From: Deltaproteobacteria bacterium
Lineage (GTDB): Bacteria > Desulfobacterota > GWC2-55-46 > JADFVP01
Assembly (NCBI GenBank): GCA_024275045.1
Contig: JAJRZX010000089.1
Span: 1 to 32,376, forward strand
Direction: 5' to 3'
Length of the DNA stretch: 32,376 nt
The stretch's first letter is position 1. Every line of letters starts with the position of its first letter. Below the pieces are notes generated by a model. It did no database searches. It worked only from the letters and a program-made list of their open reading frames with translations, and was not told where the DNA came from. Positions 9,186 to 25,683 of this stretch are shown piece by piece. The translations under genes were made by a program, and so were the position numbers.

Positions 9186-12100
9186 TTACAGGTATCCCAG
9201 CGCCTCGAGTTTCTGTTTAGTCTCTTCATCGGCCTCTATCATCTCAGCCTTTTCTCCGCCTGTTCTTTCGCTTAGCCATTTGGAGAGCAGTCCCTCAAAA
9301 TCAGCCGTAACCGCGGCATTATGCTCAGCCACGTTTTTTGTCTCCCCGGGGTCGTTTATAAGGTCGTAGAGCTCTGTAAGGCCCTTCTTGAGTTTTAAGG
9401 TGGGTGAGTACGATACATCCTCAAGGGTCTTTATAAACTTCCATTTTGTTGTTCTTATGGCTATCTGAGAGCCGTGTGCGCCCTCGTCAATAACATACTC
9501 GTGCACCTCTTTGGTCTTCTTTTCTATTAGAGGCATAAGGCTGCTCCCTTCCATGCCTTTGCTTTTAAGACCAAGTATCTCAAGGGCCGTGGGCACAAGG
9601 TCTATGTTCATGCTCATGCCCTCTACCACATGACCTGCGGGAAGTGTTTTCGGCAGGCGCATAATAAGGGGTATGCGCATGGTCTCATCAAAGACCCCCA
9701 CGTGGCAGAAATAATTGCCGCGCTCGCCAAGGTACTCGCCGTGGTCCGCGGTTATCATAATCAGGGTATTATCCAGTAGACCAAGTGCGTCCATGTGTCT
9801 GAATAGGCGGTCAAGCTCATAATCAAGGTATGTTATCTCTGCCTTGTACTCGGAGATAGGCAGACCTACGTCTGTGATGCCTTTTCGCGTGAGCCAGTTT
9901 TTTGTAAGTGCGTGCATATCCACGGAGTCCACGGTCTTTGAGTCTTTGCCCTCTCCTGAGTCCGGCGCATACATCTTGTGAAAGGGCTTTGGGGCCTGAT
10001 AAGGGAAGTGTGCGTCGAATACGTGTATCCAAGAGAAAAAGGGTTTCTCGGGGTCCTCGCTTATCCAGTCGCTTAGGATGTTTACGCACTGAGACCCGGC
10101 GCGCTCCATGCCAAGGACGGGAAAATAATCATCAAAACCCCGCTCTATGCCTCTGCACCACTCGGGGTTAAGAAGCGCCGCGCTTACTACCGCGCTGCAG
10201 CGGTACCCTTCTTTACCAAGCCTCTCGGGTATGGTCTCAAGCACCGGGAAGTTGTACTTGTAGTTGTCCATGGTCTTTATGGACCGTGGGAACTTCGATG
10301 CAAGGAGCGATACGTGGGATGGTATGGTTATGTGCGATTGGGCAAAGTGGTTTTTAAATACAACGCCTTCTCTTGCAATGCGGTCAAGGCACGGTGTTTT
10401 TACGGTTTTATTGCCCATAAAACCCAGGTGGTCAGCACGTACGGCGTCAAGGGTGATGATAAGCACGTTGGTGTGCTTGATGGTGCTGCGTTTAATCTTT
10501 TTTTTCAGCTTCGAGACTATCTCCAGAGGGCCAAGGCCCATGACAAGCCCGCTCTTGTTCCTGAAGTGAAAGTCAACTTCCTGCCCGCCGTAATGGGAGA
10601 CATCTATATCCACGTCATGCCAGGCCCTTTTTGTGAGCCTCTTGCTTAACGTGGAGAGCGCGTTCTTGGAGAAGATATCCTCAGAGGTGCCGTCTTTTTT
10701 TACTACAGATACCTCAAGGCCGCCCTTGAGGCTTATCCCCCTTGGGCCTCCCCGTACGCCTACTCCCATATTGAGTCTGCCGTCCGGTGGCACGTGTACG
10801 CCCCTGTAAATAAAGTGGGACTCCTTGTCCATGGATATGACCTGTCTCGCGTCATCACCGAGATAAAAGACCTCTTCTCTATTGGGGTTTTCTTTCTCAA
10901 ATCGGATAATAAATGATTTTTTCAGGTGGTCAAGAAAGTTGTAGCGCACCTCTCCGTTATTGGTAATCGCAGGGCTACTCCACCCGGACCAGTCAAACTC
11001 AGGGTCGTTCCGCGGGCCCGCGGAGGTCTTGAAGAGGACCTCGATTTCTTGGCCGTTAAAGCGTGATAGATCAATGGACTCATCAAACCACTCTCTGTCA
11101 CTCTCAATACTCTTTGGGTCTATGTATCTCTTAAAGAGCGAGGTGTACTCCTTGTCCGCTCTTATGAGGAGCTCGAACTCCACGCCGTCTCCCGGCTCTA
11201 TCCATGCGGCCTCGTTTATGCCTATGCCAAAGTCCAGTGTCTCGCCTTTATTGACGGTAATGCCTCGAAACTCCACGGTAGTGGATGTATCGCCAACGCA
11301 GATGGCGGGGTGCGCAAAGAGTACGGGGCGCTCCTCGCCTTTTACCTTAAATGAAGAGACATTGACCATGTTCTTAAGCTTGTAGGCGGAGTATGGGCAC
11401 TCCGTGTAACCCTTGCCTTCTTTACGAACCTCGGCCTTAAAGATATTTCTTATAAAGTCATACCCCTCCGCCACAGTGGGGCTTGTAATGTCTGTGTATA
11501 TCTCTTCAATCTCCGCCGCGTTATCGGCTATGGACTTTACGGGGGGGATGCTTTCTCGCATCTGCTCAAGAAGCCCGGGTGTATTAATGACCTCTTGTAT
11601 TACCCTGCCAAGGTCCTCGTCATCACCCGCCTTGAAGTTGAGCCCGCCGTTGCCCTTGCCAACGTACTCGGCCATGCCGCCTATATTGGAGGCTATTACG
11701 GGGATGCCCGCAAGGTATGCCTCGTGTATGGTTAACGGAGAGTTCTCGTACCATATTGAGGGTACTATAAGCACATCAATGGCAGATAGAATCTTGCCAA
11801 CGTCTTTATTGTCATAGGCGCCGGCAAGTTTTATGGATTTGTTTTTTATAAGCCCTGTAAGGTCTTTGTTGTAGTCCTTGTATCCGTGGTAGGCGACCTG
11901 CTCGCCGTATATTGTAAGCTCAGCCATGGTATCGGTTACTCTGTTAAATGCCTTAATGAGCACATGCACGCCCTTTGAGGGTATCCATGAGCCTATGTAG
12001 CCGAAACGTATTTTGTTTGATGGTTTTCTCTTTAAACCTTCGAATATGCTCTTGTCAAACCCGTAATCAAGGTATGTTATCTTTTCTTTTGGAACGCCAA

Positions 12101-12833
12101 AGTCCATGTATTTTCCCTGAAGGAACTTCGAGGGGGCGATAAAGGAGTCTACAAGGGAGCATATCTCTTGGATGTGCGCGGTGCGTTTGTTTATCTCATC
12201 GGTGCCGTGGGTATCGTCTTTCTGCAGAGTCTTTGATGAAAACAAAAACACCTTTCTCAGCAGCTCCTTGGCCGCGGCGCTGCCCTTAAACGCAGGTACG
12301 GTCTTTTTGAGTTTGGAGGCGGCCTTACCTGCTTTGCTGCTCATTGCAAGCTGGGCTGCAAGACACTCTGCGCAGCGCTCATCAGAGGGGCCCACGCAGA
12401 TATCGAGCTCGCGGTTAAGGAGCTGGCCACGCTGGCAGAAGAGCCAGAAGTCGTGCAGCGTATAGACTACGGGGATATCACGGGCTTTTGCCTCTTTTAC
12501 GCATGTGGTGGAGAGGCACGTGACGTGATGAAAGTGCACAACATCAGGGGAGACCTCATCAAGGAACTCACCGAACTTTCTTGCGATAATCTCGTTCTTG
12601 TAGGTCTTTGAGAACTCTGGGCCGCACTTGAAGTTATTATTTATGGTGGTGATATTCAGGCCCTTGTATTTCTTGTTCTCTACGGCGAGCTCTTTGGCCT
12701 CGGGGTTTGCCACTCTGTGAAATACAAAGACCTCGTGCCGTGTTGCAAGCTCCACGGCAAGGTTATATGTGTAGACCTCGGAGCCGGCCATATTTGCCGG
12801 AGGAAAACCATGTATGACCAGGGCTACTCGCAT
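9186..12833 (-). CDS. GT4 glycosyltransferase - tandem beta-sandwich - sulfatase-like fusion
   Basis: Giant 1215-aa fusion. Residues 1-450 are a GT-B/GT4 transferase: GSEVYTYNLA at the start, a Cys cluster (CVGPSDERCAEC, 146-157), GYIGSWIPSKGVHVL (278-292) and the E-x7-E motif ENSPLTIHE (363-371). Residues 470-625 and 630-775 are two beta-rich modules of one kind (DGVEFEL, RYIDPK, REWF, TSAGPR, GWSSPAI). Residues 785-1215 are an alkaline-phosphatase-fold sulfatase-like domain with metal ligands in ITLDAVRADHLG (Asp796) and TADHGE (Asp1030, His1031), ending in LEALGYL. The nucleophile loop reads ITIPSH with Thr836 where sulfatases carry Cys or Ser, so formylglycine chemistry is not expected. 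No signal peptide or membrane helix is seen, suggesting a cytoplasmic phospho- or sulfo-group enzyme coupled to chain building. Starts 3 bases after the upstream GT2 stop. Confidence 0.88.
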   Translation of the reverse strand: MRVALVIHGFPPANMAGSEVYTYNLAVELATRHEVFVFHRVANPEAKELAVENKKYKGLNITTINNNFKCGPEFSKTYKNEIIARKFGEFLDEVSPDVVHFHHVTCLSTTCVKEAKARDIPVVYTLHDFWLFCQRGQLLNRELDICVGPSDERCAECLAAQLAMSSKAGKAASKLKKTVPAFKGSAAAKELLRKVFLFSSKTLQKDDTHGTDEINKRTAHIQEICSLVDSFIAPSKFLQGKYMDFGVPKEKITYLDYGFDKSIFEGLKRKPSNKIRFGYIGSWIPSKGVHVLIKAFNRVTDTMAELTIYGEQVAYHGYKDYNKDLTGLIKNKSIKLAGAYDNKDVGKILSAIDVLIVPSIWYENSPLTIHEAYLAGIPVIASNIGGMAEYVGKGNGGLNFKAGDDEDLGRVIQEVINTPGLLEQMRESIPPVKSIADNAAEIEEIYTDITSPTVAEGYDFIRNIFKAEVRKEGKGYTECPYSAYKLKNMVNVSSFKVKGEERPVLFAHPAICVGDTSTTVEFRGITVNKGETLDFGIGINEAAWIEPGDGVEFELLIRADKEYTSLFKRYIDPKSIESDREWFDESIDLSRFNGQEIEVLFKTSAGPRNDPEFDWSGWSSPAITNNGEVRYNFLDHLKKSFIIRFEKENPNREEVFYLGDDARQVISMDKESHFIYRGVHVPPDGRLNMGVGVRGGPRGISLKGGLEVSVVKKDGTSEDIFSKNALSTLSKRLTKRAWHDVDIDVSHYGGQEVDFHFRNKSGLVMGLGPLEIVSKLKKKIKRSTIKHTNVLIITLDAVRADHLGFMGNKTVKTPCLDRIAREGVVFKNHFAQSHITIPSHVSLLASKFPRSIKTMDNYKYNFPVLETIPERLGKEGYRCSAVVSAALLNPEWCRGIERGFDDYFPVLGMERAGSQCVNILSDWISEDPEKPFFSWIHVFDAHFPYQAPKPFHKMYAPDSGEGKDSKTVDSVDMHALTKNWLTRKGITDVGLPISEYKAEITYLDYELDRLFRHMDALGLLDNTLIMITADHGEYLGERGNYFCHVGVFDETMRIPLIMRLPKTLPAGHVVEGMSMNIDLVPTALEILGLKSKGMEGSSLMPLIEKKTKEVHEYVIDEGAHGSQIAIRTTKWKFIKTLEDVSYSPTLKLKKGLTELYDLINDPGETKNVAEHNAAVTADFEGLLSKWLSERTGGEKAEMIEADEETKQKLEALGYL

Positions 12834-12836
12834 GTC

Positions 12837-13793
12837 TCAGACTCCTCGAATGTTGTTGCTCCCGCGTCCGGTTATGGCGTCAAGGGCACCGCTGTACTGT
12901 GCGTAGACGTTTAAGAGGGATGCGAAGGGGGTTCGTAATATTAAAAATATTTTTTTGTAAAACACAGGCTCATTGCTCCAGATATAAGCTGCGTCTCTAA
13001 TCGTGGAGTTAAAGGCGTAACGTACAAGCTGAGTTCTTGTGGATATGGTCCTTATGCCGAATATCTCATTCAGGCGCCTGTGACAGAGGCGCGTTCTCTT
13101 GTACTCGTACCCCAGCGGCCTTGAGTGAGAATGAGTAACAGCTGCCGCTGGTTCGTATACTATCTTAAAGCCCTTCTCAAGGACCTTTTTTGACCACTCC
13201 AGGTCTTCGGCAAAGTCTGTCCTTACATAGGGGATTTTTTCCCATACGCTTACTCTTACAGCAGAGCATACGTCATCAAAGTTACAGAAAAAATACTTTT
13301 CCATGGGTCTCATCTTATCGTATGCCTCACGCTCACTGATAGCGGATACGTGCCTCTTGTCTCTGCCTGTGAGCCACCCGTTGAGGTCCCGTTTTGTAAG
13401 CGGGTGGGCCTCTGCTCTTGGGTACTGCCTTGCGTACACCCCGGCAACAAGGGGGTCTGTAAGAAAGGGGCTTATCATTGCGCTTAGCCAGTGTCTGTTC
13501 AGCGGCACGGCGTCCTGCGTCATAAGTATAACAAACTCTCCCTTCGCAAGCCCTATGCCTTTGTTTCTTGTCTCCCCGTGGTTGAACTCACCTGGGTCAA
13601 TCTCATAGAGCCTGAGCAGGGGGGGAGAAAACCCTTTAATGCGCTCTACTGTACCATCCGTGGAGCCTGAGTCTATAACAATTACCTCAAAGGACATATC
13701 CGTATCTTGAGAAAAAACAGCCTCAAGGCACTCTCTGAATAATTCCCCACCGTTAAAGGATGGTATGAGTATGGAAACCCTTATATCTTTCAT
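12837..13793 (-). CDS. Family 2 glycosyltransferase
   Basis: Probably cytoplasmic GT2 of 318 aa. It opens VSILIPSFNGGELFRECL, has VIDSGSTDGT (39-48), the GEFNHGETRNKG segment (68-79), the DxD-like MTQDAVPL (91-98) and a YPRAEAHPLTKRDL region; this combination is common in rhamnosyltransferases of O-antigen clusters. The conserved acid pair is in FAEDLEWSKKVLEKGFK. It sits in the operon between two GT4 genes, 28 bases after the upstream one and 3 bases before the next. The specificity for rhamnose is only suggested by resemblance. Confidence 0.9.
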   Translation of the reverse strand: MKDIRVSILIPSFNGGELFRECLEAVFSQDTDMSFEVIVIDSGSTDGTVERIKGFSPPLLRLYEIDPGEFNHGETRNKGIGLAKGEFVILMTQDAVPLNRHWLSAMISPFLTDPLVAGVYARQYPRAEAHPLTKRDLNGWLTGRDKRHVSAISEREAYDKMRPMEKYFFCNFDDVCSAVRVSVWEKIPYVRTDFAEDLEWSKKVLEKGFKIVYEPAAAVTHSHSRPLGYEYKRTRLCHRRLNEIFGIRTISTRTQLVRYAFNSTIRDAAYIWSNEPVFYKKIFLILRTPFASLLNVYAQYSGALDAITGRGSNNIRGV

Positions 13794-13821
13794 TACAGCG
13801 GCGCGCCCCGCCTCCTGGATG

Positions 13822-15684
13822 TCATGCCTGCGCCATGGCAGTAAGTCTTGGGGCCTTACATGAGATAAGCCTCATGTACCTCTTCTCCATATTATCGGCA
13901 TCTTCCGCTATAGTCTTTACCTCTGGCAGCCCAGCAATGAGCCTATTGAGGAGTTTTTTGTCTCTTATAAGCTCCTCCATCTTCCCACGCAGTCCAGCGG
14001 CATCGCCTACCTTAAAGACAAGACCTGATACCCCATCCTGCACAAGCTCGGCCATGCCGCCGATGTTGCTGGTGATAACGGGAATGCCGGATAGAAATGC
14101 CTCGTGTATGGTAAGGGGCGAGTTCTCAAACCATATGGATGGTACTACGAGAACATCGATTTCCGAGAGCACCTCTATTATATCTTTATTATCAAAGGCG
14201 CCCATGAAGCGCACCCCTGAGTCACCGGCCTCTTCACGGAGCTTTGCCACGTAATCAGGGAACCACGTAAGGTTACCGTATATCTTCAGCTCTGCGTGCT
14301 CTCTGTCTTTACGGCCAAGGCCGCTGAATGCACTCACCAGTACATGAACGCCCTTATGCGGTACAAGGCTTCCGGTGTAGCCGAAGCGTATTTTTTTGTG
14401 CTTACCTGACCTTTTCTTTTTTGTACTGAAAGCACTTACATCAAAGCCGTTGTCTGAGTAGAGAATTTTCTCGGCAGGGATGCCGAACTCCACGAAGCGT
14501 TCTTTTAAGAATCGAGAGGGTGAGATAAAGAGGTCTACGCCTTGAGTTGCCTGAAGTACTTTTTCAAGTCTCATGTTTACGGTTGGTACGAGTTTTTTAG
14601 CTGCCACGGCATCAAATAAAGAGTTGAATTTAAGGAGCGACCTTGCGGCCAGCCTCTTGCCCTTTGAGGCGCTCTCCGCCCCTTTTGACTCAACCCTTAC
14701 ATCTGCCCATCCCGCCGTGAGCCCGCTCTCTTTGAAAGAGGACTCCGGGCCAGTTACAAGGCTCAGCGCCACTTTTTTGCCACTGTATTTCTCAAGGTCC
14801 AGCTCGTGTCCGTGCCAACCCTCCCCACCATCCTTGGCGGTGGGCAGCACCTCGCAGAAGACCTCGTCATCGTCTACCAAAACCTTAAAATATATCCCTT
14901 CTCTCTCTTTTATTTTATTAATATCCCCGGCGCCGTTTTTTGCCTTTACCCCTATGGCAAAACTCATGAGAGACGCCTCGCGCACGTTACGCTTGAATGT
15001 AATAGTAGATGCCCTGCTTGTGAGTATGGCCGCTCTGGAGTCGCCGTTAAATGTAAGGCGCCCTTTCTTAACAAAACGTCTTTGCGTACCCTCTACACGG
15101 GCTTTATCAAGAGAGGCCGTAAGGTCAGAGTCTCCGGTATTCTGCAGCCTCCCTGATATTTTTGCGAAGAGCCTCTTCAGGCGAAAGGAGTTCTTTGAGT
15201 ACCGTGAGACGCATCTCGCGCATCTTGCGACCTCGATCTCATGGCAGATACTGAGGCCGGGGGTCATTCTCTGGCCCCCAAGCGGACAGGTAAGCCAGTA
15301 GTCGTGCAGGGTAAAGACAACGGGTATGGATCTGTCTTTAGCTATCTTTATGTAATTCAGCGAGTGGTTGATAAGGTGCTGAATATGGATTATATCGGGT
15401 CCTGTTTTATCAAGCACCTCGGTGAAGAGCCTGTCCATGGCCGCGTTCTCGTATGTCTCTGTAAAACCGCTGTAGTCTCTGTTAACTATGGCCTCAAAGT
15501 AAGGCAGCCCATCGTAAGCCCCCTCTCTAAGGGTGTACTGGCGCGTGCCGCGCTCTGCCTCGGTAAAAAAAAGGCTTACCTCGTGCCCTCTTTTTACGAG
15601 CTCCTTTGAGAGCTTGTATGTGTAGACCTCTGAGCCCGCCGTGTGACGGGGGAGAAAGTCGTGTATAACCTGAAGTATCTTCAT
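13822..15684 (-). CDS. GT4 glycosyltransferase with inserted beta-sandwich domain
   Basis: GT-B fold transferase of 620 aa, well above the usual 380-420 for the family. The N-terminal half (1-190) has HTAGSEVYTYKLSKEL, FTLHDYWLTCP and a Cys cluster (CHEIEVARCARC, 147-158). Residues about 205-335 are an inserted beta-rich module (EGIYFKVLVDDDEV, GWHGHELDLEKYSGKKVAL, GWADVRVES) related to those in the GT4-sulfatase and GT-C/TPR proteins of this operon. The C-terminal half (about 380-600) has GYTGSLVPHKGVHVLVSAF and E-x7-E in ENSPLTIHE (520-528). The GT4 parts of this protein and the 1215-aa fusion are clearly related, so they look like paralogues that acquired the same module in different places. 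Probably adds a sugar to the chain on the cytoplasmic face; the insert could hold the growing glycan. Confidence 0.9.
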   Translation of the reverse strand: MKILQVIHDFLPRHTAGSEVYTYKLSKELVKRGHEVSLFFTEAERGTRQYTLREGAYDGLPYFEAIVNRDYSGFTETYENAAMDRLFTEVLDKTGPDIIHIQHLINHSLNYIKIAKDRSIPVVFTLHDYWLTCPLGGQRMTPGLSICHEIEVARCARCVSRYSKNSFRLKRLFAKISGRLQNTGDSDLTASLDKARVEGTQRRFVKKGRLTFNGDSRAAILTSRASTITFKRNVREASLMSFAIGVKAKNGAGDINKIKEREGIYFKVLVDDDEVFCEVLPTAKDGGEGWHGHELDLEKYSGKKVALSLVTGPESSFKESGLTAGWADVRVESKGAESASKGKRLAARSLLKFNSLFDAVAAKKLVPTVNMRLEKVLQATQGVDLFISPSRFLKERFVEFGIPAEKILYSDNGFDVSAFSTKKKRSGKHKKIRFGYTGSLVPHKGVHVLVSAFSGLGRKDREHAELKIYGNLTWFPDYVAKLREEAGDSGVRFMGAFDNKDIIEVLSEIDVLVVPSIWFENSPLTIHEAFLSGIPVITSNIGGMAELVQDGVSGLVFKVGDAAGLRGKMEELIRDKKLLNRLIAGLPEVKTIAEDADNMEKRYMRLISCKAPRLTAMAQA

Positions 15685-15695
15685 AATATAAAGGC

Positions 15696-16790
15696 TTATT
15701 TTGGTTGTTTTATGATGCCGAGACCCTTTAACGCCTTTACGCCTCTGGATTTTTCCAGCAAGTCCAGTCTTTTTACGAGCTCCGCTATCCTCTCGTCCTT
15801 TTTTTCTACTCTTGCCTTGAGCTTTTGTATGCGGTTGTCTTTCTGTTCCACCGTGGCTTTTAACCCTTTTATGTACCCCTCTCTTGCCTCCAGTGTATCT
15901 TCCAGGCTTTTAATATTCTTGTCCCTTGTCTCAATAACCTTCTTAAATTCTTCTCTCTCCAGGTCACCGGCTTTTCTCAGCGCATTATACCCGTGGAGGT
16001 TGATGAGCGGCGAGAGCCACGACAGGTCAAGGTCCTTTTTACCATCCGCGGCAACGCCAAGGCCCTCTATCTTCAAAACAACCTCTTCTCTGAATCCTCC
16101 CCTGCACGAGGCCAGGAGGTGGCGGTACGAGGGCTCGCAGTTGTCAGATGGGTAGTAGTTCTCGTTATAAAAGGTGTTAATGCGCCGGGCAAGGCTTTTT
16201 AGAAATTTATCTCCCGTAACATATATAGAGAGCGCCATCATGGGGAGCCAGCGCTTAAGTACCCCGTTGGGCACGGAGAGGGTCTGCCAGCCGCTCTCTG
16301 CAAGGGTTTGCGTAACACCCTGCTCATCAGGCAGACCGTACTTGATATGTTCTCTTAAAAAGGCGTGCTCCTCGCCGCTTGCGGCCTTTATCACATCATA
16401 GAGTATGACCTCTGCCTCTTGCACGTTATGGGTCTTAAAGGGCGCGGCTATGAAGACGTAATCTCTTGAGACCCGCTTAAGCTCCTTTATAAAACTCTCT
16501 CTTACATCAGGCACAATGTGCTCAAGAACATCCACGCTTATGACAATATCAAAGGTCTTCTCTCTAAAGGGCAGGGCAGTGCCGTCGCCGCGTATGAATC
16601 TTCCTTTTGTAGAGGGCACGCGGTCCAGTATGTAAATATCATCAGAGGGCATAAAGTCCGTTAAAGTGCCGGGGCTTCCGCCAACGTCAAGAATTTTTAA
16701 GGGTTCACCGCCGCCTCTTACGGCCTCAATGGCGTCTTTTACGATGCAGTACCTCTGGTACTGATCAAAGGGCAGCTTAACGGGGTTCAT
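15696..16790 (-). CDS. SAM methyltransferase with C-terminal coiled coil (WbdD-like cap candidate)
   Basis: Class I methyltransferase of 364 aa. Motif I is ILDVGGSPG (33-41); an acidic loop YILDRV and DVLEHIVPD (87-95) follow. Residues 277-346 are a long charged coiled coil (EEFKKVIETRDKNIKSLED and so on), and the tail ends GLGIIKQPK. The start overlaps the end of wzt by 14 bases. In E. coli O8/O9a the methyltransferase/kinase WbdD caps the glycan and uses its coiled coil as a length ruler for export by Wzm/Wzt. Domain order and neighbourhood here fit a methyl-only cap enzyme of that kind. That role is inference; no kinase domain is present, and a plain sugar O-methyltransferase remains possible. 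Confidence 0.85.
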   Translation of the reverse strand: MNPVKLPFDQYQRYCIVKDAIEAVRGGGEPLKILDVGGSPGTLTDFMPSDDIYILDRVPSTKGRFIRGDGTALPFREKTFDIVISVDVLEHIVPDVRESFIKELKRVSRDYVFIAAPFKTHNVQEAEVILYDVIKAASGEEHAFLREHIKYGLPDEQGVTQTLAESGWQTLSVPNGVLKRWLPMMALSIYVTGDKFLKSLARRINTFYNENYYPSDNCEPSYRHLLASCRGGFREEVVLKIEGLGVAADGKKDLDLSWLSPLINLHGYNALRKAGDLEREEFKKVIETRDKNIKSLEDTLEAREGYIKGLKATVEQKDNRIQKLKARVEKKDERIAELVKRLDLLEKSRGVKALKGLGIIKQPK

Positions 16791-18066
16791 CTCTATCTTC
16801 CTTTATGGCCCAGGCCGTGGCAATGGAGACAAGACCATGCTCTATTACATTACCCTCCATGACCTCGAAGACAAGGGCCTTCTCCATGTGGTCAATGGGC
16901 GTTGGCGCAAGCTCGCTGTGGTCGTAGCAGTAATAGGAGATATAATAAGAGCCCTTTAGGAGCGGCAGATTATTAATAGTGCAGGTAATGCGGCCGCTCC
17001 CGCCTTTGGTGAGCTCAGGTATCTCCATTGGGTCCTTGTGCCAGAGGTGATTGAGTCCTGCGATATATGTGCCGTCATTACGGAATATGCCAATACCGAA
17101 GACCGGGTTGTTCGTAGTCTTCGTAACCCTGTATTCGGCCTCTATTACCATCTTCTCATTGGGGCTGTATACATAGCGCTCTGTCTTTTTATCGTCAAGA
17201 AGCCTGACTTTTTCTATGTGTATGCTGCCGTCTCCCCATCTCGGGGGAAGGGGCTTATCAGCAGCCGCATCCGCGGCTTCAGGGGTGCTCTCAGCCTCAC
17301 TGGCTTTTTTGTTCAAGGCCCCTATCTTCGCCTCTCTCTGCGCGTGCACCATGGTAAGGTAACGGTCAATTACCTCATCGGCGGTGCCGTTGGCTACAAG
17401 CCTGCCCCTGTCAAGGAGCATAACATGGTCGCAGATAGTGCGTAGATTATACAGGCTGTGCGTGACAAGCACAAGGGTCTTGCCCCTGCTCTTTAGCTCG
17501 TTTATCTTGTTAAAGCATTTACCCCTGAAGTACTCATCCCCTACGGCGATGACCTCGTCTACAAGGAGTATCTCCGGGTCCATGGCAATCATGATGGCGA
17601 ATGTAAGGCGCATCTTCATACCTGATGAGTAAGTCTTTACAGGTAGATCTATAAAATCCCATAACTCGGCAAAGTCCACTATCTCCGTGAATTTTTCCGC
17701 GGCCTCCTCTTTTGTGAGCCCCAGCAGCGAGCAGTTCATAAAGAGGTTTGCCCTGCCCGTAAAGTCCCCCTTAAAACCCGCGCCAAGCTGCAATACCGAG
17801 GTAACCTTGCCCTTAATGGCAATTTTGCCCGTAGAGGGTTGGCTGAGCCTTGATAAAAGCCGCAGCAGCGTACTCTTGCCTGCGCCGTTATGGCCGATTA
17901 TGCCGCAGGTGCTGCCCTTTTTTATCTCAAAGTCCAGACCCTTCAGGGCCCACATCTCCCGGTGGCGTTTTTTGCCGCGGGGCATTATCATCTCCGCGAG
18001 CCTGTGGGATGGCTTTTTGTATATATCGTATTTTTTTCCGAGATTCTCGGCCTTGATAACAATCAT
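16777..18066 (-). CDS. wzt: O-antigen/polysaccharide ABC exporter ATPase Wzt, with C-terminal binding domain
   Basis: ATPase of 429 aa. Walker A is GHNGAGKS (58-65), the signature is YSSGMKMRL (146-154), Walker B is ILLVDEVIAVGD (166-177) and the switch His is His203. YSSGM with VLQLGAGF is typical of the Wzt/TagH branch. After an Ala/Glu-rich linker (250-275), residues 280-420 form a beta-rich domain like Wzt-C, which in E. coli O9a binds the modified non-reducing end of the glycan. That domain, together with the methyltransferase gene overlapping by 14 bases, points to export of a capped chain. It pairs with the Wzm permease 6 bases upstream. The ATPase call is firm; ligand recognition by the C-domain is family knowledge. 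Confidence 0.95.
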   Translation of the reverse strand: MIVIKAENLGKKYDIYKKPSHRLAEMIMPRGKKRHREMWALKGLDFEIKKGSTCGIIGHNGAGKSTLLRLLSRLSQPSTGKIAIKGKVTSVLQLGAGFKGDFTGRANLFMNCSLLGLTKEEAAEKFTEIVDFAELWDFIDLPVKTYSSGMKMRLTFAIMIAMDPEILLVDEVIAVGDEYFRGKCFNKINELKSRGKTLVLVTHSLYNLRTICDHVMLLDRGRLVANGTADEVIDRYLTMVHAQREAKIGALNKKASEAESTPEAADAAADKPLPPRWGDGSIHIEKVRLLDDKKTERYVYSPNEKMVIEAEYRVTKTTNNPVFGIGIFRNDGTYIAGLNHLWHKDPMEIPELTKGGSGRITCTINNLPLLKGSYYISYYCYDHSELAPTPIDHMEKALVFEVMEGNVIEHGLVSIATAWAIKEDRDEPR

Positions 18067-18072
18067 AATGGT

Positions 18073-18876
18073 CTACAGAAGGTCTACGAGTTTCATATGG
18101 TTTTTAGTAAAGAACCTGTACCCGAATAAGAATATGGCAACGGAGAATATCATGAAATAAATAAATTCCGCACCGGGGAGTCTGTCGTTAAGAAGTATAT
18201 CCCTGTATGCCGTGATAAGAGAGGTCATGGGGTTGATGTATATGAAGATACGTACTTTCTCAGGGACGATTGAGAGCGGATAAAAAACCGGAGTAAGGTA
18301 CATCCACATCCGTATGAGCGGTCTCATGAGCGGGTTTACATCGCGGAAAAAGACATTAAGGGCAGAGAGCAGGAGGGCAAAACCCATGGTAAGGAGAAAC
18401 TGGAAAAAAACAACCACCAATAGCAGAGGTGATAGATAACCCAGTGTCCCGGTGAGGACCACTCTGAAGATAAGCAGTATGACTATGCCGATGAGCTCGC
18501 TTATTAGGGCTGAGATAACAAGGGACGTATGCAGCGTCTTCAGGGGGAAGACTACGTTTCTTACGAGATTCGCGTTCTTGGTAAGGGTGTTTACAGAGGT
18601 GGTGATGGACTCCTGAAATGCTATCCAGGGCAGCATCCCGCAGAAGAGGTAGAGTGAGTAGTTGTGGATGGAGCCTGCTTTTGTAAACCTTACGCCCAGG
18701 ATAACGGAGAATACAAAGGTGTATATGATGAGAAGAAGTATGGGGTTCAGGACAGACCAGTACAGCCCCAGCGTGGAGCCCACGTAGCGCGTCTTGAGGT
18801 CGCTCTTTACGAACTCGGTAACAAGGTACTTGAACTCAAGGGATCTCTTTAGACCTCTGCTGAGAGCAATGCCCAT
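18073..18876 (-). CDS. wzm: Polysaccharide ABC exporter permease Wzm
   Basis: ABC-2 type inner-membrane permease of 267 aa with about six membrane segments, the usual size for Wzm/KpsM/TagG proteins. It starts with an amphipathic part and FVKSDLKTRYVGSTLGLYWSVLNP, a typical ABC-2 entry; PLIRMWMYLTPVFYPLSIVPE and YINPMTSLITAYRDILL follow near the end. It forms the channel partner of Wzt, encoded 6 bases downstream, and lies 5 bases after the GT-C/TPR gene. Together they carry lipid-linked glycan across the inner membrane. Confidence 0.95.
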   Translation of the reverse strand: MGIALSRGLKRSLEFKYLVTEFVKSDLKTRYVGSTLGLYWSVLNPILLLIIYTFVFSVILGVRFTKAGSIHNYSLYLFCGMLPWIAFQESITTSVNTLTKNANLVRNVVFPLKTLHTSLVISALISELIGIVILLIFRVVLTGTLGYLSPLLLVVVFFQFLLTMGFALLLSALNVFFRDVNPLMRPLIRMWMYLTPVFYPLSIVPEKVRIFIYINPMTSLITAYRDILLNDRLPGAEFIYFMIFSVAIFLFGYRFFTKNHMKLVDLL

Positions 18877-18881
18877 GAGAC

Positions 18882-21800
18882 TTACTCCTTTATCCCGTTA
18901 GCCTTGATATAGGCTATTTCTTTTTGTGCGAGTTTCTTTATCGCCGCAGAGCCCTCTGCTGAAGCAGTAACGGCCTTGAAAAACTCAAGGGCCTCATCTG
19001 TCCTGCCCCCGGCCTTGAGGATGCGCCCAAGCTTAAGAGCGGCGATGCCGTTATGAGGCGCCTTGTCAAGGGCTTTTCTGTAACTCTCTTCGGCGTTTTG
19101 CAGGTCTTTCTTGAATCTGTAATAATCGCCAAGCATAATCAGGGCAGGGCCGCTCTGCGGGTGGGCGCTCAAGACCTTCTCGAGCTCTGCTCTGGCCTTT
19201 GCGCTTTTGCCTGCCAAGAGGTAGTTTCTTGATAACCCAAGGCGCGCCGCCGCGTTCTCTGGTTCTAACCGCAGTACCTGGGTATAAGAAGTTATAGCCT
19301 TCTCGTATTCCTTGTGGCGTCTGTAAAGTTTTGCCAGACTCAGGTTAAACCCAATGTTATCAGGCGTTAGCCTCAGACCCTTGGTGAGCAGGTCCTCTGC
19401 TCTCTTGAATTCCCCGGTATCTATATAATATTTGCTTAGACGGCTCCTTGCCTCAGTGCCACCGGGGTATATTCGCAGTGCTATTCGGAACTGCTCTGCG
19501 GCCCTTTTTTTATCTGTCTTTTGGTTGAGTACCAGACCCAGGGCCATGCGGACGTCATAGTCTTGGGGATATTTTTTTGCCTCATCCTCAAAGAGAGATA
19601 TATCATCAAAGCGGGCTATCTCTGCCATGATAGCGCCGGTCCCGGCCGCCTCTGAGATCGTATCTTTACCGGGGCTTATAAGAGGCACTGAGCTCAGGGA
19701 GACGAGTCCGGTGCTGCCCCAGCCCGCCTTATCAACGTGCCTCCACCTGTTCTTCTTACCCATGGTGAGGTTAAGCCTGGGGCCCCCTGATGTGACAAAG
19801 TAAATAATTAAATCACGTCCCCGGTATTTTTTCAACCCCGCCATGTAGTTGAACCACCGTCTCTCGGCCACGTTGTTCTTGGCGTCTATGTAGCGTGAAA
19901 AGAGTTTTTCGCCCCTCTTGGCAGCCGCATCATAGAGGTAAACCTCAAAGAGCACGCCGTCCCCATCATTGGGGTGCCAGACCATGGGCGACTGGCTTAT
20001 GGAGAACCTCAGCGCAGAGTCCCCGGGCACATGCAGAGGGAAGGCCGTATAGACCTTGGAGAGGCCCTTGCCGGGCTCCTGCCATATTACGTCTCTAAGT
20101 AGCCAGGCGCTCTCTGTAACCTGATTGGCCCTGAAGAGCTCCACTCTGCGCCCGCTGCCGAGGATTACTCCGCTCCCGGCCTCAGAGAGTCTATCCGTAA
20201 AGTCATACTCTAACTTCCCGTAGCCCTTTTTGTTCTCAAGGGCCTCTTCTGCCTCTGCATTTACGGGAATTATCTCTTCAGCCGCAGGACCTCTCTTAAG
20301 TACATAGGTCGCGCCGCCAACCTCAGTAATGGGGTATGAGCTGTCTATATGGTAGTTCTCGGTGATGTACTTGTGTATGAGGGGCATGTGCTTGCTCAGC
20401 CTTTTCTCATCAAAGCTCATATCAGAGTAGATAATGTACCTGAGCCTGCTCTTTTCCAGTGCCTTTATCACAGTGGCCTCGTCCATGGCCCCGGGCATTA
20501 TAAGGGGGTAAGGCACAATGCTCTTTCTTGCGCTTAGAAAATAGTACATGGCCCCTGTAGGCACTACAAGGATGGGCTCGTCAGGGGTTGTATAGTTATT
20601 TATGTGTTTTGTTGTGGCCCTTATTACCGCGGCTTTATTATGATTTGTCTTTATGCCGTAAGCCCTCTCAAGATGCATGACCTCTTTTACCTCTCCGGGA
20701 GCCGGATGAAACAGAGGCATGTACGAGGAGGCGAGGTTTAAGATGGAGAAGAGCGCGGTAAGGGTATAGGCTGTGACTTTTAAGAACGTAAACAGGCGCA
20801 AACGGGGCAGTGCCTCTGCCAGCAGCGCGGCGAGGATTATAACGGGTGGAAGGATAAAGGTGAGGTGGGAGATATCGCTTCTTGGAAAAACGCCCAGGAA
20901 GATTAAGAAGGAGGTGAGTACAAGGGTTGCTTCTTTCCACGGCACGGTTTTTCTTCGAATTACGGACTGAGCCGTATGGATAAAACCAGCGGCAATAACA
21001 AGAGGGGGCAGAATGAATATAACCGCAGCAACGTTTTTGATCCACTGCTCACTTACATGCCCTTCTTTAAGCGCCCATATGGAGAGATCTCTAAAAGGTA
21101 TGTAGTTTAAAAACTCGCTCTGAAAAAAGTAAGGGTTTTCCCTTGAGAGCAGGGGGTATGCCTTGTAGTATACGCCGGCGGCCTTCTGGAATAGAGAGAT
21201 AAAGGTGTACTGCACCATCTGGTGCCACGCCCCTGCTGAGTAAAAATAAAGCACTGTGAGAACTACAGGTACGCTGAATGAGATGGAGAAAACAATCAGC
21301 GGCTTAAGCTCTTTTTTGCCGAGAAGCCTTGCGAAAAGAATACAACCCGTACCTGCGGTGATAAAGACCCCGTAGTTCTGCTTGAAGAATACGGCAAGCG
21401 CTGCCGCGGCGCCTGAGAAGAGAATCGTACTCAGTGAAGATGAGTTAAGGTAGTGTAAGAAAAAGAGCAGGCTTAGAAGGACAAAGGTTATGGAGAGCTG
21501 AGAGTACCCGGGCCACCTGTAGGCAGGCAGGGCCATGGAGATAAAGAGTATGGAAATAAGAAAGGATGTTTTTTTTTGTATAAAGAACCTGGATATGGAG
21601 TAGATGAGAAAGGTGCTCGCGGCTATGGTGAGGCATGCCAGTATGCGTCCCGTCAGCACGGAGAACCCGAAGATGGAAAAAAACAGGGCCTGCAGGTAAT
21701 AGACCCCCGGCATAATGCCCGTTACCAGGTCTCTATAAAGGACGTCACCCTTTGTGAGCCTCTCGGCTACATAAAGGAGGGCCCCCTCGTCAAGCATGGA

Positions 21801-21899
21801 TATATCCATCTGTGAGAGGGGCAGGTACAGCAGTACCGCAAGTGCGAAGACGGCAATACCCCCCTCAAAGGGGGAGAAGGTATTAAGTGAGTTCTTCAT
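18882..21899 (-). CDS. GT-C membrane glycosyltransferase - beta-sandwich - TPR fusion
   Basis: Protein of 1005 aa in three parts. Residues 1-395 are a polytopic GT-C type domain (ArnT/PMT/GT39-like) with the acidic loop MDISMLDEGALLYVAERL (Asp37, Glu38) after the first helix, where these enzymes bind metal and lipid-phosphate sugar. Residues 400-540 are a soluble part typical of the group (DEPILVVPTGAMYYFLSARKS). Residues about 590-740 are a beta-rich module (DGVLFEVYLYD, RYIDAK, RRWF, TSGGPR, GWGSTGLVSL) shared with two other proteins of this operon. Residues 770-985 are about six TPR units. By family the beta and TPR parts should face the periplasm. It likely transfers a sugar from polyprenyl phosphate, perhaps made by the DPM1-like enzyme, to glycan or another acceptor. 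It overlaps the upstream methyltransferase gene by 4 bases (ATGA). Confidence 0.88.
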   Translation of the reverse strand: MKNSLNTFSPFEGGIAVFALAVLLYLPLSQMDISMLDEGALLYVAERLTKGDVLYRDLVTGIMPGVYYLQALFFSIFGFSVLTGRILACLTIAASTFLIYSISRFFIQKKTSFLISILFISMALPAYRWPGYSQLSITFVLLSLLFFLHYLNSSSLSTILFSGAAAALAVFFKQNYGVFITAGTGCILFARLLGKKELKPLIVFSISFSVPVVLTVLYFYSAGAWHQMVQYTFISLFQKAAGVYYKAYPLLSRENPYFFQSEFLNYIPFRDLSIWALKEGHVSEQWIKNVAAVIFILPPLVIAAGFIHTAQSVIRRKTVPWKEATLVLTSFLIFLGVFPRSDISHLTFILPPVIILAALLAEALPRLRLFTFLKVTAYTLTALFSILNLASSYMPLFHPAPGEVKEVMHLERAYGIKTNHNKAAVIRATTKHINNYTTPDEPILVVPTGAMYYFLSARKSIVPYPLIMPGAMDEATVIKALEKSRLRYIIYSDMSFDEKRLSKHMPLIHKYITENYHIDSSYPITEVGGATYVLKRGPAAEEIIPVNAEAEEALENKKGYGKLEYDFTDRLSEAGSGVILGSGRRVELFRANQVTESAWLLRDVIWQEPGKGLSKVYTAFPLHVPGDSALRFSISQSPMVWHPNDGDGVLFEVYLYDAAAKRGEKLFSRYIDAKNNVAERRWFNYMAGLKKYRGRDLIIYFVTSGGPRLNLTMGKKNRWRHVDKAGWGSTGLVSLSSVPLISPGKDTISEAAGTGAIMAEIARFDDISLFEDEAKKYPQDYDVRMALGLVLNQKTDKKRAAEQFRIALRIYPGGTEARSRLSKYYIDTGEFKRAEDLLTKGLRLTPDNIGFNLSLAKLYRRHKEYEKAITSYTQVLRLEPENAAARLGLSRNYLLAGKSAKARAELEKVLSAHPQSGPALIMLGDYYRFKKDLQNAEESYRKALDKAPHNGIAALKLGRILKAGGRTDEALEFFKAVTASAEGSAAIKKLAQKEIAYIKANGIKE

Positions 21900-23865: not shown

Positions 23866-25683
23866 ATGGACACGGCGTACCCCATCAAGAGGCCGCATAC
23901 GATACAACACCCCATGATAAACCGCATCGAGACCAAGAGCAGAACCGGCAAGAGCAGGATAAAGAGGGCCGTTATACTTGCGGACGGAGAGAACGCGCTC
24001 CTTACTCCGCTGGTAAAACACAGGTCCATTATGGAGCTGCCAGTCTTTAACAGGCCGATTATAGAGCATACCCTCAAATGCCTTGCCCATAACGGTGTGA
24101 CCAGCGTAGTAATCGTGGGCCGGCAAGGCGGCTTTGAAGAGATACCTGCCGATACCTTCGGCAACGAGGGCCCCCCGGTAAAGATAGAATACTTTGCCTC
24201 AGAGGTGCCCCGCGGCACAGCCGGAGTGCTCCGTGATTTACAGGACTACTTCGAGGACGAGGATTTTATCGTACTTCAAGGCAATACATTTGCGGAGTAC
24301 AGCGCCGTGGATGACTTAATCAATTTTCACATTAGAAAGGGCTCGGGCCTTACCATCGGGGTCTCGCGCCTTGGCCGCGGCTCTCTTGAGACCCTCACCG
24401 CCGCTGAAGACGGGAGCGTGGAAGATATCTCCATTATACATTCCTCAATAGAGAACAAATCCTCTGTAAAACCCGAGGGCATCTTTGTGGTAAATCCAGA
24501 GGCCCTCTCTCTTATTGACGGCGAGGGGTACTTTGATATTAAGGAACAGCTCTTTCCCGCCATGAAAAAAGCCTCCATGCCCGTATACATACACAGGTTC
24601 GGCGGGTACATAAGGACTATAGAGAGCGTAGACGATTATTATAATTTTCACAGGTCACGCCTTCTTGATGGACACGTACCCGGTGGGTTTAAAGAGGTAG
24701 GCGCGAATATATGGGTTGGCAGAGACGTGGCCATCTCACCGCGGGCCTATCTGCTTGGCCCTGCCGTAATAGGTGATAACTGCGTGGTCCGAGATCATGC
24801 GCAGGTAATAGGGCCGGTAATACTTGGAAGCAACTGTCTTATTGACGAGGGCTCCATTGTGCGCGAGAGTATCCTCTGGAAGGGTACGGAAGTGCGGCAG
24901 GGGGCGTCCTTATTTTACTGCGTGGCAGCCTCTAATACGGATATAAAGAAGGGAAGCTCCTATAACAACATGACTCTTGTAGGTGATATTACCCACGGGG
25001 ATACCAATATCGTGCCCTCAAGAGACGACGCGCCCACTGTGAGCGGAGTTACGGTGAGAAAGATAGAGGCCGTAAGGTCAAGGGCCTATCTGATGACCAA
25101 GAGGATGATGGATCTGATGCTCTCCTCTCTTGCCCTCTTGTTCTTATCCCCTCTTATGTTTGTAATCGCCGTTATTATAAAGTTCGATTCCCCGGGCTCT
25201 GTTATCTACAAGCAGAAGCGTTGCGGTAAAGACGGGCGTGAGTTCAGCATGTTGAAGTTCAGGACTATGGTGCAGGGCGCGCACAAGCTGCAGAAAAAAT
25301 ATATGGACGATAAAAGCGTGGACGGCCCTGTATTTAAGCTTGATTCAGACCCGAGGATAACGCGTATCGGGGGTTTTCTCAGAAAGACAAGCCTTGACGA
25401 GCTGCCTCAGCTCATGAACGTTCTAAAGGGGGAGATGAGCCTTGTTGGGCCAAGACCCCTTGTAATGGGCGAGATGAAGTTCAGCCCCAGTTGGAGAGAC
25501 ATCAGGCTGAAGGTAAAGCCCGGGGTCACGGGGCTCTGGCAGGTAGAGGGCAGGAGCAGCCCTTATTTTCATGACTGGATACGCTATGACGTATCATATG
25601 TAAAAGATCAGTCCCTTACCGGCGACCTGAAGATAATGATGAAGACTATCAAGGTGGTGCTGAGAAAAATAGGCGCCCGTTAA
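23866..25683 (+). CDS. Degenerate NDP-sugar pyrophosphorylase domain fused to initiating sugar-phosphate transferase
   Basis: Protein of 605 aa. Residues 33-265 have the fold pattern of an NTP_transferase sugar nucleotidyltransferase. Its GxGTRLxPLT loop reads ADGENALLTPL (39-49), the KPxLPV lysine region reads RSIMELPV, and the metal Asp of the GD motif is Asn140 (VLQGNTF), so catalysis is doubtful. Residues 280-385 are left-handed beta-helix hexapeptide repeats (VIGDNCVVRDHAQVIG). Residues 405-605 are a complete bacterial sugar-transferase domain with one membrane hairpin (LALLFLSPLMFVIAVIIKF), KFRTM, SLDELPQ (Asp511, Glu512), MSLVGPRP and GVTGLWQVEGR. That part should load a sugar-1-phosphate onto undecaprenyl phosphate and start a repeat unit. 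No ribosome binding site is visible before ATG 23866; ATG 23914 is an alternative. Confidence 0.9.
   Translation: MDTAYPIKRPHTIQHPMINRIETKSRTGKSRIKRAVILADGENALLTPLVKHRSIMELPVFNRPIIEHTLKCLAHNGVTSVVIVGRQGGFEEIPADTFGNEGPPVKIEYFASEVPRGTAGVLRDLQDYFEDEDFIVLQGNTFAEYSAVDDLINFHIRKGSGLTIGVSRLGRGSLETLTAAEDGSVEDISIIHSSIENKSSVKPEGIFVVNPEALSLIDGEGYFDIKEQLFPAMKKASMPVYIHRFGGYIRTIESVDDYYNFHRSRLLDGHVPGGFKEVGANIWVGRDVAISPRAYLLGPAVIGDNCVVRDHAQVIGPVILGSNCLIDEGSIVRESILWKGTEVRQGASLFYCVAASNTDIKKGSSYNNMTLVGDITHGDTNIVPSRDDAPTVSGVTVRKIEAVRSRAYLMTKRMMDLMLSSLALLFLSPLMFVIAVIIKFDSPGSVIYKQKRCGKDGREFSMLKFRTMVQGAHKLQKKYMDDKSVDGPVFKLDSDPRITRIGGFLRKTSLDELPQLMNVLKGEMSLVGPRPLVMGEMKFSPSWRDIRLKVKPGVTGLWQVEGRSSPYFHDWIRYDVSYVKDQSLTGDLKIMMKTIKVVLRKIGAR

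Follow-up and report, generated by a model that had tools for sequence, protein, structure and literature searches.

Four segments in three glycan enzymes encoded in the window (the whole stretch of 32,376 nucleotides of deltaproteobacterial DNA that was analysed) belong to a single, as yet unnamed family of jelly-roll (galactose-binding-domain-like) modules. Judging from sequence, models and analogy, we consider it fairly probable that the module is a portable carbohydrate-binding module (CBM), which would dock pathway enzymes on the polysaccharide of the cluster or on its polyprenyl-linked precursor. Two copies lie in tandem in a fusion protein of 1215 residues (9186–12833, minus strand), in which Pfam places a GT4 domain at residues 1–455 and an alkaline-phosphatase-superfamily (AP) domain at residues 789–1174. 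The first, F1, comprises residues 478–628 (10950–11402, minus strand), as supported by an HMM built from foreign copies, the AlphaFold2 model and the signature count. The second, F2, comprises residues about 649–762 (10548–10889, minus strand), as supported by the HMM, hhalign and the strand order in the model. The third copy—hereafter called the “GT4 insert”—lies at residues about 198–334 (14683–15093, minus strand) in the N-terminal domain of a second GT4 of 620 residues (13822–15684, minus strand; Pfam Glycos_transf_1 and Glyco_transf_4), and is supported by the HMM, hhalign and a model; both GT4 proteins score above the Pfam cut-off. The “GT-C copy”, identified by the HMM and pairwise comparison, occupies residues about 591–737 (19689–20129, minus strand), between the GT-C part and the C-terminal TPRs of a PMT_2-type protein of 1005 residues (18882–21899, minus strand; Pfam PMT_2 and TPR families). 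The latter protein scores 37.3 bits against PMT_2 (cut-off 26.1), and has at least 8 hydrophobic segments in residues 1–390. The module segments as a whole span residues about 480–628 (F1), 641–772 (F2), 195–336 (GT4 insert) and 584–737 (GT-C copy). A sequence-only reading had noticed four segments with shared signature motifs in three glycan enzymes, and all of them are present where it placed them. Pfam leaves the four segments unassigned, and sequence searches of Pfam, NCBIfam, PHROGs and the PDB returned nothing above the cut-off. The description “four copies of one module” is right by descent and fold, while it is not necessarily right by function.

The common descent is established by an HMM that was built from the copies of other genomes only, with the window sequence excluded. 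This profile matches F1 (1.1e-38), the GT-C copy (2.5e-25), the GT4 insert (9.2e-14) and F2 (5.6e-6, over residues 649–762), whereas the top score among about 3,500 shuffled proteins is 0.12. In pairwise comparisons, F1 and the GT-C copy share 32% identity (E 6e-14 with the composition statistics off). F1 also matches F2 (1e-6) and the GT4 insert (3e-5), while no pairwise match is detectable between F2 and the GT-C copy. With profiles excluding the query, hhalign yields 97.2% for F2 and 96.6% for the GT4 insert. When the GT4 insert alone was used to search 247 whole genomes, the best foreign matches were module-bearing proteins (5e-7), and F2 alone matched module-bearing proteins weakly (0.004) in the same genomes. 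Several weak matches of such single-copy queries (L053, L056, L070 and L111) were judged to be due to chance.

The predicted structures are consistent with this relationship. In the AlphaFold2 model of the tandem (fusion residues 472–784), F1 folds into nine strands with pLDDT 90–98, and the core of F2 adopts the strand order of F1 with pLDDT about 55–91, though zero homologues were aligned to F2. The model of the GT4 insert (mean pLDDT 84.9, pTM 0.82) again has the strand order of F1. Accordingly, the structural comparison suggested earlier finds one jelly-roll sandwich in F1, F2 and the GT4 insert, to which the GT-C copy is assigned by its alignment to F1. Foldseek matches the GT4-insert model mostly to CBMs, including CBM61 (2xom/2xon), CBM51 (2vng, TM 0.61), CBM6, CBM35, CBM36 and CBM4, and also to the cellulose-synthase BcsB. 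The tandem F1–F2 model matches a tandem CBM51 (2ygm), the GlcNAc-bound CBM51-2, CBM22, and reelin, CUB and MAM structures. The E-values of about 1e-4 and TM scores of about 0.5–0.6 establish the fold class only, and not the ligand. On the basis of these models, the earlier comparison with carbohydrate-binding modules is supported as far as a CBM-type fold is concerned.

Which known domains does the module resemble? The best Foldseek matches, CBM51/NPCBM and other galactose-binding-like CBMs (CBM6, 35, 36 and 61), share its jelly-roll fold. However, the module has no Pfam NPCBM match at E up to 10, and such CBMs usually reside on secreted glycoside hydrolases rather than on biosynthetic enzymes. 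The best resemblance at the sequence level is a weak likeness to the InhA-like MAM domain (PF20773) around the RKWhd..iDLs.y.Gk motif (E 0.0065), with a fold rmsd of 3.8 A over 129 columns and a PDB sequence match at E 0.11. With the full-length protein, PF20773 reaches E 0.042 and 13.8 bits, below its cut-off of 26.9; moreover, the InhA-like MAM domain is an accessory domain of peptidases, outside glycan synthesis. Another beta-sandwich of an ABC-transporter-dependent polysaccharide pathway, Wzt_C (PF14524), is present in the window cluster and binds the glycan end (PMC9445017, PMC11231755). Homology of the module to Wzt_C was rejected, with an hhalign probability of 1.5% and no Pfam hit of the family to the segments.

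The copies differ in the conservation of a signature, defined as the 26 positions at which at least 75% of 22 core copies agree. The core copies keep 21–26 of these positions, F1 keeps 25, the GT-C copy 22, the GT4 insert 10 and F2 only 6, in agreement with the earlier impression that F1 and the GT-C copy resemble each other closely, whereas the other two have diverged. F2 lacks the GDGV, IDPK, TSxGPR and DWAGW motifs. By this measure, F1 and the GT-C copy appear intact. The GT4 insert and F2 are degenerate, and the ligand of F1 and the GT-C copy may not be theirs; the loss of most signature residues from these two copies makes a single ligand for the four less likely. These losses also speak for the strongest alternative, in which only F1 and the GT-C copy are still functional, F2 and the GT4 insert being structural remnants that do not bind. 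Both diverged copies still retain the fold and an open frame, and AP-linked relatives with a similarly poor signature (7–15 of 26) are widespread and may form a second functional branch. We regard the remnant explanation as a serious possibility, while leaning against it; it is compatible with glycan docking as regards the intact copies.

The module changes its host enzyme between homologous clusters. The core of the window cluster is of the ABC-transporter polysaccharide type, and consists of a methyltransferase with a coiled coil, Wzt (with Wzt_C) and Wzm (15696–18876, minus strand; assigned by Pfam, with 38–46% identity to the L025 cluster). In the clusters L025 and L030, from the genomes G088 and G124, the identities to the window proteins are 46% for Wzm and 43% for Wzt (both in L025), 38% for the coiled-coil methyltransferase, about 40% for GT4 and 39% for GT2. 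The window GT2 (12837–13793, minus strand) is a protein of 318 residues without the module, while its homologues in L025 and L030 have 483 residues and bear a C-terminal module; the alignment covers residues 1–306 of the window protein at 39% identity, and stops where the module region of the homologue begins. In L030, a B12-radical-SAM enzyme also bears the module, and the homologous GT4 lacks the insert (454 residues, as compared to 620). The hosts are thereby reversed, with the module on GT2 and radical-SAM enzymes there and on GT4 in the window, which indicates that the pathway, and not the enzyme, is the constant element. In G394, a module-less GT4 resides beside Wzm, Wzt and the methyltransferase (L123), and another contig (L124) encodes a module-AP gene, with its 5′ end cut by the contig, which is 36% identical to the C-terminal half of the window fusion. 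The GT4 part of the fusion aligns with a stand-alone GT4 up to residue 455, and the C-terminal part aligns with this module-AP protein without GT4. As judged from these alignments, the fusion joins two parts that are separate in other genomes, and its borders lie near residue 455 (the end of GT4) and residue 478 (the start of F1). In G403, a GT-C with the module resembles the window GT-C, and an AP enzyme with the module resembles the window fusion. The GT-C plus module arrangement of the window recurs in L126, where window residues 17–704 align at 22% identity (E 8e-26). The module is present in 6 of the 8 genomes with the cluster methyltransferase, as compared to 27 of 395 overall (hypergeometric p 1.5e-6, a value that overstates independence, since the six genomes belong to only four families).

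The sequence-only reading had attributed this spread to domain shuffling within one locus, for which we find no support. The module occurs in several phyla, each window copy is closest to a copy of another genome (F1, 37% to L042; GT-C copy, 35% to L038; GT4 insert, 27% to L036; F2, 25% to L042), and the tree does not group the window copies. A tree constrained to group them has an lnL lower by 21, although the AU test does not formally reject it (p 0.12). The GT4 insert and F2 fall with the AP-linked, signature-poor copies, on long branches. Taken together, these sequence data fit an exchange among the enzymes of one cluster type, across genomes.

The module family is rare, yet spans phyla. 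A profile of two rows, F1 and the GT-C copy, yielded no copy of the module in the 58 nearest genomes (G001–G058). The cluster methyltransferase was not found in a sampled subset of them. Since both are missing from the near relatives searched, the polysaccharide cluster of the window looks like a variable locus. The two-row profile detected strong copies in four other genomes of the phylum, at the C terminus of GT2, B12-radical-SAM and PMT-type GT-C proteins, and within proteins of the YfhO type. YfhO has a known role in lipoteichoic-acid glycosylation (PMC5836110). When genome contigs were scanned, copies were detected in Acidobacteria, Gammaproteobacteria, Nitrospinota, Aminicenantes and Melainabacteria, besides Deltaproteobacteria, and the phylum-wide search with 18 copies, which detected the module in the above-mentioned 27 genomes, recovered all four window copies. 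Many genomes have a single copy. The partners are mostly glycan enzymes (GT2, PMT_2, YfhO and AP/“sulfatase”), and also include the B12-radical-SAM enzymes. The distant matches are mostly N-terminal to “sulfatase”-superfamily domains, in proteins often with a signal or membrane anchor; others form the C-terminal part of GT-C proteins or the end of small secreted proteins. The module thus occurs on proteins without a membrane segment or signal (GT4, GT2 and radical SAM) as well as on secreted and membrane enzymes, as anticipated by the earlier proposal that it is used on both sides of the membrane.

What could the module bind? That the module stays the same while the enzymes that carry it change within one pathway points to a ligand that is likewise constant. 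The glycan of the cluster itself, or its polyprenyl-linked form, is the best candidate, in view of the fold, of the enzymes to which the module is attached, and of the CBMs on GT-C enzymes as a precedent. The beta-rich CBM of ORF12 (GT136), a GT-C of Citrobacter youngae O1, was purified and binds the unmodified O-polysaccharide, and the CBMs of EmbC and AftD contact the acceptor glycan (PMC11127046). Like the module, the CBMs of ORF12, EmbA/B/C and AftD are accessory beta-sandwiches on GT-C enzymes that extend or decorate a polysaccharide; by description, which is the level of this comparison, the ORF12 CBM is immunoglobulin-like and reported for GT-C only, whereas the module also occurs on GT4, GT2, radical-SAM and AP enzymes. 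By analogy, the module would hold a GT4, GT2, GT-C, B12-radical-SAM or AP-superfamily hydrolase/transferase on the growing polysaccharide or its polyprenyl-linked precursor. Such docking would raise the local substrate concentration and possibly confer specificity. The intact copies would act in a presumably cytoplasmic GT4–AP fusion (F1) and on the presumably periplasm-facing side of the GT-C protein, while the diverged GT4 insert and F2 may be structural or bind something else. We infer the sugar binding, the common ligand, the topology and the effect on catalysis. Some observations count against glycan docking. The CBM of C. youngae ORF12 is dispensable for the enzyme activity (PMC11127046), proteins are also among the ligands of jelly-roll folds (with MAM, reelin and CUB domains among the matches), and the module resembles the InhA MAM domain most at the sequence level. 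A broader version, which we advance only tentatively, is that the module serves as a portable address label, marking enzymes for one class of surface polysaccharides, and is moved by evolution between unrelated enzymes on both faces of the membrane, recruiting its carrier to the same nascent glycan.

The main rival to glycan docking is protein docking, in which the module, like MAM, would assemble a membrane-associated enzyme complex through a common partner or through other modules. The weak InhA-like MAM resemblance and the MAM, reelin and CUB fold matches are in keeping with this role, as are the presence of the module on several enzymes of one cluster and its location at termini and in loops. 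We nevertheless consider it unlikely: the hosts reside on both sides of the membrane and include secreted or lipoprotein-type proteins, which makes a common protein partner improbable, CBMs dominate the single-domain fold matches, and many genomes have only one copy. Polyprenyl- or lipid-linked compounds are the substrates of the GT4, GT2, GT-C and YfhO enzymes in pathways of this kind, and the sequence-only reading had suggested a lipid-linked ligand; a membrane tether that recognizes the lipid carrier or a phospholipid head group, rather than the glycan chain, would fit these substrates. This seems quite improbable to us, as the module also occurs on secreted AP-superfamily enzymes and small secreted proteins, and its fold matches are mainly sugar-binding. 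Finally, the idea that the four segments are unrelated beta-sandwiches with chance motifs, which the undetectable F2–GT-C pair might have favored, was disproved by the HMM, profile and structure tests and retains practically no probability.

Many degrading enzymes are well known to have accessory glycan-binding domains, and a few assembly enzymes have them too, each as a special case. The module is an uncatalogued branch of accessory carbohydrate-binding-type modules that is remarkable for its range of partners: one family is common to six enzyme types and to several enzymes per cluster, and moves to other hosts between homologous clusters. With this family, one can test directly by what means the enzymes of a polysaccharide pathway converge on one chain. 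The family also provides a sequence marker by which B12-radical-SAM and “sulfatase” proteins whose substrate is unknown can be assigned to polysaccharide synthesis.

The C-terminal domain of the fusion matches Pfam Sulfatase (3.8e-35), its LDAVRADH and TADHGE motifs align with the metal-binding motifs of other AP-superfamily members, and its nearest PDB entries are sulfatases. However, in the alignment to solved sulfatases and module-linked AP domains, a nucleophile motif, T836-I-P-S-H (10314–10328, minus strand), replaces the formylglycine motif C/S-x-P-x-R, which makes the earlier label “sulfatase” doubtful. None of the other module-linked AP domains in the alignment has the formylglycine motif; they have T-x-P-S or variants of it. 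In the AP superfamily, threonine nucleophiles are those of phosphodiesterases and phospho-transferases, such as LtaS and EptA; sulfatase activity of the fusion should therefore not be assumed. Because no membrane segment or signal was found in the fusion, its AP domain is probably cytoplasmic, unlike several secreted relatives. A literature search found nothing directly relevant on a glycosyltransferase–sulfatase fusion or on the module domain.

Several further genes were observed in the course of the analysis. In G088, four adjoining YfhO-type genes (L023 and L024; C1, about 2548–2559 kb) each have the module before the YfhO C-terminal domain. B12-binding radical-SAM proteins with a C-terminal module are encoded beside polysaccharide genes in L030 (7607–9421, minus strand) and L032 (2335–4131, minus strand), and are candidate glycan-modifying enzymes. 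A family of small secreted proteins of unknown function (L097, L099, L100, L102, L104 and L107) has a C-terminal sequence that matches the module in its second half (SDGV.F ... DLS.wAGK ... DWAvWv.P). The window methyltransferase (15696–16790, minus strand), which adjoins Wzt and has a C-terminal coiled coil, resembles a WbdD-type chain terminator with a ruler, without the kinase domain; its homologues in L123 (719 residues) and L125 (683 residues) have an extra N-terminal methyltransferase-like part. On the opposite strand (23866–25683, plus strand), the window encodes a fusion, assigned by NCBIfam, of a sugar nucleotidyltransferase-like part (residues about 34–345) and a polyprenyl glycosylphosphotransferase (residues about 400–605).
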